The position numbers and the translations under genes are program-made. The notes below the pieces were generated by a model. That model saw only the letters and a list, made by a program, of their open reading frames with translations, ran no database searches and was not told the DNA's origin. From the NCBI GenBank assembly GCA_028281465.1, contig JANQJV010000426.1, positions 1-32,157 on the forward strand: a DNA stretch of 32,157 bases, written 5' to 3'. Numbering within the stretch: position 1 is the stretch's first letter; each line of letters opens with the position of its first letter. This DNA is from Azospirillaceae bacterium. GTDB lineage: Bacteria > Pseudomonadota > Alphaproteobacteria > Azospirillales > Azospirillaceae. Of this stretch, positions 1 through 587 are shown in pieces.

Positions 1-143
1 TTCGGCGCTGAACGAGGAGCGCCGGCATCCTTGCCGGCTGGACCGCCGGCTTCCAGCCGGCCCGGACCACGCCCAGCAGCTGGCCGCCAAGATGGCGGCG
101 GTCCAGCCGGCAAGGATGCCGGCGCTCCTCGTTCAGCGCCGAA
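1..143. repeat. Large nested palindrome with 48-bp perfect arms (REPIN/MITE-like)
   Basis: Positions 1-48 are the exact reverse complement of 96-143, with a spacer of about 47 bp. The arms are modular. Smaller inverted repeats lie inside them: GGCGCT/AGCGCC at 4-9 and 18-23, GCCGGCTGGA/TCCAGCCGGC at 33-42 and 52-61, and GCCGGC/GCCGGC at 106-111 and 118-123. The spacer holds CCAGC-A-GCTGG at 73-83 and GCCGCC/GGCGGC at 83-88 and 94-99. The outer arm begins at the first base of the window, so the true boundary may lie further left. Such a structure could extrude as a cruciform or fold as a long RNA hairpin. A REP doublet (REPIN) or a miniature inverted-repeat element is the likeliest class. No target-site duplication can be judged because the left flank is missing. 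Confidence 0.85.
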
Positions 144-587
144 ACCGACCTGTCAATGCGGGCCATGGGTATGATTGCCCCGTCTCGGTGCTTTGGGCAG
201 AATACGCCGGCGGACGTGCAGAGATCAGTGAGCCTTTGGCCGTGAGCATCGACCGCGTCTTGTGGTCGGCGATCGCGTTCCGGTCCGTCTGATTGGTGGC
301 TGGGTCCTGCCGATCCCGTGATCTGGTGTTTTTCCGACATGGCGAGCTGAGCCGCCGTTGCCGTGCTCGATGTCAATCTCCTCCGCTGGCCTCCGATAGC
401 CGCTAGCGTGGGAGCGATGATGTCGTGCAGCGCAGGCACTATCAGATCGTCTGGCTGATTGCGCAGGGTGGGACGACAACCCAGGTTTTGCGGAGTACAG
501 CCTCCAATCCCTGCTGGAGTCGGGAGTTCGTTGTCCTCTGATTCCAAGAGCGGTCCTGCGACCGCCCCACGCTTTCGGATTGTCGCC
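144..587. other. Non-coding stretch between the palindrome and the transglutaminase gene
   Basis: About 440 bp without a convincing intact gene. The short open frames here (for example 92-292 + and 225-479 -) have no recognisable domain or ribosome-binding site. The only coding-like signal is a transposase fragment near 407-505. At 550-565 a 6-bp hairpin (GCGGTC/GACCGC, 4-nt loop) follows the stop of the transglutaminase gene on the minus strand and could be a weak terminator, although the trailing T-run is short. Confidence 0.5.
407..505 (+). pseudogene. Relic of an IS630-type transposase N-terminus
   Basis: The frame through 419-505 reads with RRHYQIVWLIAQG followed by GTTTQV. This resembles the start of the N-terminal helix-turn-helix of IS630-family transposases (typically a QRRYQIVWLLAQG-type segment, then a second helix). 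A stop lies just upstream at 404-406. After about 30 codons the frame loses resemblance, and a shift to another frame would be needed to continue the second helix. No catalytic DDE region follows, since the transglutaminase gene starts its coding region at 588 on the other strand. I therefore call it a truncated, frameshifted remnant. The family assignment is from memory of the motif only. Confidence 0.4.

Follow-up and report, generated by a model that had tools for sequence, protein, structure and literature searches.

Palindromic MITEs of bacteria, such as ERIC, NEMIS/Correia and RUP, have been described in general terms (PMC3733652, PMC10969869). REPINs, inverted REP doublets dispersed by a RAYT (REP-associated tyrosine transposase), are defined by the 5′ tetranucleotide GT[A/G]G (PMC3686654), and REP dimers are also found within larger palindromes, exemplified by GTAG-15 of Anabaena variabilis and CGTC-1 of Halothiobacillus neapolitanus; in these two genomes, that study reports none of these palindromes lacking REPs (PMC3733652). 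Among insertion sequences, a 3-bp TNA target duplication is customary in the IS1031 subgroup of the IS5 family (PMC12016507).

The window, i.e., the whole stretch of 32,157 nt that was analyzed, corresponds to contig C190 of a draft genome of 6.33 Mb in 426 contigs, and opens with a palindrome. This palindrome is real as the earlier note described it, with arms 1–48 and 96–143 that are perfectly complementary over 48 bp, and nested inverted repeats do occur in it (e.g., 28–42/52–66). Over the longer arms 1–62 and 82–143, of which the outermost 48 bp pair without mismatch, complementarity is 92%; the longest perfect pairing in 30 shuffles of the window was 14 bp vs. the 48 bp observed. DNA folding of the palindrome gave −84.7 kcal/mol vs. 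−36.8 ± 3.1 kcal/mol in shuffles (z = −15.7). The coordinates 1–143 hold for the palindrome but are too short for the element to which it belongs, whose right end is at 171: window 1–171 represents the right-hand portion of a truncated copy of a MITE-like, non-autonomous transposon with a high copy number, designated here element A. Base 1 of the window is also base 1 of the contig, so the left part of the element is absent and the perfect left arm is uncheckable here. This copy has R-type sequence on both sides of its core (R-R form) and contains the following features:

1–171, no strand assigned: MITE-like element A, R-R form, left-truncated by the contig start (defined from copies in its own genome and their ends)
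1–48, plus strand: left arm of the palindrome, perfect complement of 96–143; its outer 15 bases are of the R type, not of the usual L type
96–143, plus strand: right arm of the palindrome
16–128, plus strand: REP-like core of 113 bp, an inverted hairpin pair GGAGCGCCGGC...GCCGGCGCTCC with hairpins in the spacer
129–171, plus strand: R end of element A, aligned to the consensus
158–171, plus strand: terminal inverted repeat GCGGGCCATGGGTA, which reads TACCCATGGCCCGC inward
172–174, plus strand: target-site trinucleotide TGA, which is the right-hand member of the TNA target duplication; the other member lies beyond the contig start

Comparison of window positions 1–143 with the rest of its genome, a check proposed in the earlier note, revealed several dispersed copies with conserved ends, with at least 41–42 matches in plus orientation, nearly all of them at 93% identity or higher. 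Likewise, an 18-mer from the hairpin (up to one mismatch) occurs 367 times in the genome vs. none for the reversed pattern. Reading the copies outward from these matches showed that the repeat extends beyond the palindrome. For 26 full-length copies, whose mean pairwise identity is 93%, the consensus is 206 bp, folds end to end, and comprises an L end (TACCAACGGCCCGAAACAATGACCGGTCCTCGGGCCGCCCTGTTTC), a core (GGAGCGCC...GGCGCTCC) and an R end (TCGTTCAGCGCCGAAACCGAACCTGTC[AG]TCAATGCGGGCCATGGGTA). The unit reads TACC[ACG]A[CT]GGCCCG...CGGGCC[AG]T[GT]GGTA, and its L and R ends are unlike each other. We recovered 63 complete copies with TACC[ACG]A[CT]GGCCCG at both termini, 62 of them with one L and one R end; they are non-coding, dispersed and range from 85 to 206 bp. 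The exact end pattern with a flanking C was found 91 times in the genome vs. 0 in controls and fits 36 of 126 known ends, which extrapolates to ~318 ends or ~150 copies, a figure that may fall short of the true copy number because the 63 copies behind it were partly chosen by the same end pattern. Internal repetition was seen in two places: half of the core is tandemly repeated in units of ~80 bp in L056 (1477–1683), and the terminal segment CCCATGGCCCGC of the R end of one copy is present three times in tandem in L089 (contig C127, minus strand from ~1503).

Nearly all complete copies are flanked by TNA...TNA, and N is identical on both sides in 27 of the 43 scorable copies, a number not reached in any of 20,000 shuffles; an earlier test on 22 copies only was not significant (p = 0.22), and the 43-copy test is decisive. 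The unequal N of the other 16/43 copies must be ascribed to mutation, recombination or mis-assembly. Additionally, two paralogous empty sites were found by comparing a transposase gene carrying two A copies (L061, contig C1) with its uninterrupted paralog (L140, contig C192): the latter has a single TGA, whereas one filled site has TGA on either side and the other has TGA and CGA. Both loci belong to a broken DDE_Tnp_1 gene family, and the two insertions lie ~110 bp apart in one copy. Insertions are mostly intergenic, with a median spanning open frame of 177 codons vs. 395 at random positions (p = 3e-11). The terminal inverted repeats and the TNA duplication, supported by the end statistics and the two empty sites, identify element A as a MITE-like non-autonomous transposon; of the readings offered in the earlier note, this is the one borne out by the dispersed copies and their conserved ends. 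The unit of 206 bp inserts at TNA and duplicates it, as these data show.

Element A is presumably moved in trans by a DDE-type transposase acting on its inverted repeats, and the most likely mobilizer would be of the IS5/IS1031 type, with which it shares the 3-bp TNA duplication. In contrast to those elements, it has no transposase gene of its own, and no IS5-type locus with element A ends was found here. At the 12 DDE_Tnp_1, 8 DDE_3 and 4 DUF4096 loci examined in the part of the draft genome that was read, we found no transposase with such ends, and no match to the inverted repeats of element A was found at the four DUF4096 loci; nor is the inverted repeat of ISLrh (GAACCTGTC...) like that of element A. 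A search of 1.29 Mb of its own genome, overlaps included, for termini of the element A type not belonging to A found none.

The sequence downstream of the palindrome led the earlier note to propose an IS630 relic 260 bp away, and a peptide at window 425–490 (VQRRHYQIVWLIAQGGTTTQV) is indeed readable there that, judged by eye, we take to resemble the start of an IS630 transposase. If element A were a non-autonomous IS630/Tc1 derivative, kin to this relic, the eight DDE_3 loci of the genome could be invoked in its favor, but no inverted-repeat pair with element A ends was seen around these, and the 30 residues at 425–490 have no Pfam match, which leaves the relic unconfirmed. IS630 elements duplicate TA, and a duplication of TNA rather than TA, with matching N, argues against such an origin. 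This reading is largely contradicted by the identity of N on both sides and by the empty sites, and we regard it as extremely improbable; a TA duplication, and an IS630 origin with it, was rejected on the same two grounds, and IS630 is unlikely as the mobilizer of element A.

Two other dispersed repeats were noticed. Repeat B (L152–L169, L230–L259; AGTTCCACACCGTG...CGTTTCTTGTTAG, also with GGAGCGCCGACGCC hairpins) has ~40 copies and was rejected as an autonomous partner, being a separate repeat of ~275 bp; about 11 of the 18 B copies with a left end adjoin an element A end exactly at GGTA-TNA. A third repeat, GAGCAAATCCCGAGCAGATTGA...GAGCGTTTTCCGCGAACCAGTGTGAGCGGAAAACGCTC, was found in L027, L211 (9775–9875), L194, L224 and others, and its copy in L027 contains an insertion of A.

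In the 113-bp core, two hairpins in inverted orientation have the tetranucleotide GGAG, present in nearly all copies, on their outside, and a further two hairpins lie in the spacer. The sole Y1 transposase found in the genome (C136:362–1021, locus L106) is a RAYT by NCBIfam NF047646 (93.4 bits, cut-off 80), related to E. coli TnpAREP (PDB 4er8). An inverted pair of core-like hairpins with 94% complementarity over 50 nt is found upstream of its gene; one more similar hairpin, into which the RAYT open frame extends, is located at the 3′ end of the gene. The suggestion of a REPIN in the earlier note therefore stands for the core, an inverted hairpin pair like those flanking the RAYT gene, and fails on the tetranucleotide and on dispersal as a duplication-making unit; we call the core REP-like, not REPIN, because GGAG stands where a REPIN would have GT[A/G]G. 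That the whole of element A is a REPIN dispersed by the RAYT, with incidental outer repeats, has in our view a slim chance of being correct. It would agree with the inverted GGAG hairpins on the flanks of the one RAYT gene and with the layout of the core as an inverted REP doublet, but GGAG is not the tetranucleotide expected (PMC3686654), nearly all cores lie within a 206-bp unit with TNA duplication, and ten copies have the ends and no core. Such cores are seldom seen outside family A: of 127 core-like regions in ~1.0 Mb, eight were interior to contigs and had neither element A end. The RAYT gene is flanked by three of the eight, and another two (L212 and L219) are core-like units with altered ends. 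The target duplication also speaks against mobilization of the whole unit by the RAYT; Y1 enzymes are not known to generate target duplications.

The REP-like core was probably acquired by the MITE on a single occasion and has since been dispersed as a passenger; either a smaller MITE captured the core, or the full-length form came first and was followed by deletions. A related possibility, which we consider rather unlikely, is that element A is driven by two enzymes, as a DDE-mobilized MITE carrying a captured RAYT-type REP doublet as cargo, on whose core the RAYT may still act. A transposase unrelated to RAYT would then have amplified the REP-like hairpins more than 100-fold in number, to over 100 copies. 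The suggested spread of a REP-like doublet inside a classical inverted-repeat transposon would mean that REP abundance need not stem from a RAYT.

Shorter copies of element A form a ladder. Approximately 29 of the 36 shorter copies have at their junction a direct repeat of 6–10 bp that derives from the consensus hairpins, and in the remaining ones the junction repeat is of 4 bp or less. These repeats include AGCGCCG, in ten 85-bp copies, as well as GCCGGCA, TGCCGGC, TCCAGCCGGC, CGCCGGC, CAGCCGGCC and others, although several copies share one junction and the counts do not represent independent events. The ladder is consistent with slippage at hairpins or with misalignment of the template there. 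The hairpins are deletion-prone, and the shorter copies constitute a natural record of hairpin instability. The claim of the earlier note that long arms are unstable agrees with this ladder, but arms that pair perfectly over 48 bp are absent from most copies in the first place. The duplication is kept in 10 of 11 copies of 85 bp, indicating that these are either mobile themselves or formed in place; a test for a single origin of this class by common end variants gave p = 0.16, while the 117-bp class looks like one lineage.

Perfect arms were found in a minority arrangement. Of 57 distinct core records, 41 have L on one flank of the core and R on the other, and eight have R on both. These eight correspond to five distinct loci, three of them at contig edges (the window copy in C190 and those of C67 and C130) and two interior (C235 and C125). 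These two interior copies have no matching duplication, and none of the five loci has a demonstrated one. The 48-bp perfection is probably particular to the R-R form and not a trait of family A, and is likely a chimera of two right halves, which would have been joined by mis-joining or fold-back at contig ends or by recombination between copies. Additionally, a matching duplication is present in 11/27 full-length copies vs. the 10/11 of the 85-bp class (Fisher p = 0.01); the less frequent conservation in full-length copies makes mis-joining in assembly, or recombination, likely. Draft contigs break at repeats of the element A type, where mis-joins may arise; the 3-bp duplication provides an internal check of such joins.

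Template switching is known to homogenize the arms of other inverted repeats (PMC8604942), and the window palindrome could be genuine and made in place if such a switch had overwritten the L arm with a copy of the R arm (quasipalindrome correction). The two R-R copies inside contigs would be accommodated in this way, as would the C67 copy, in which private variants are mirrored in both arms (GGGGCGCC/GGCGCCCC). We nevertheless consider this origin unlikely: contig ends host three of the five R-R loci, and the missing duplication in the interior R-R copies points to two joined copies. Moreover, analysis of arm covariation over the 57 copies revealed two mirrored double deviations vs. 1.0 expected, so that homogenization is no habit of the family. 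Habitual homogenization of the arms in situ was rejected on this basis; the lack of covariation indicates that pairing is inherited by copying and that neither selection on the hairpin nor template switching upholds it.

The same result bears on the folded RNA element considered in the earlier note, which found no support, with neither arm covariation nor a family matched in an Rfam search of the window. A structured RNA under selection, be it a terminator, an mRNA stabilizer or a regulatory hairpin, would be in line with the very stable fold and the mostly intergenic copies, but the arms show no compensatory change, the core is freely lost in many copies, there is no Rfam family, and the repeat is confined to one lineage; we consider it very improbable. 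A conserved RNA was rejected as a candidate, given that compensatory changes are absent among the 57 copies.

Searches with the window copy in 38 relatives retrieved short, weak matches only, and the GGAG-hairpin pattern has 388 matches in this genome vs. near-background numbers in 58 relatives of the same family. Family A looks like a lineage-restricted expansion. Element A is also present in two places of the Chromatiales MAG PL25a_bin.61, as a full-length copy at 83% identity, in addition to a partial one at 95%, and a copy in this MAG has TTA on either side; in the literature on purple sulfur bacteria, we found nothing usable on repeats of this kind.

Together, we are confident in a joint explanation that comprises a MITE mobilized in trans, a REP-like core as passenger, a ladder of deletions, and an R-R form made from joined right halves. 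Like ERIC, NEMIS/Correia and RUP, element A is short, non-coding, intergenic and high-copy, with terminal inverted repeats and long hairpins. ERIC, Correia and RUP have a TA duplication, whereas element A has a TNA duplication, and it also differs from these MITEs in its unrelated sequence, its REP-like core and its ladder of core deletions. With REP, REPIN and RAYT systems it shares the inverted hairpin pair, a conserved tetranucleotide outside of it, and similar hairpins next to a RAYT gene; conversely, it has GGAG for GT[A/G]G and is dispersed within an inverted-repeat, target-duplicating unit. As in GTAG-15 and CGTC-1, the REP doublet of element A is placed inside a longer repeated palindrome but, unlike these, element A has core-less copies of 85 bp and an outer unit with a demonstrated target duplication.
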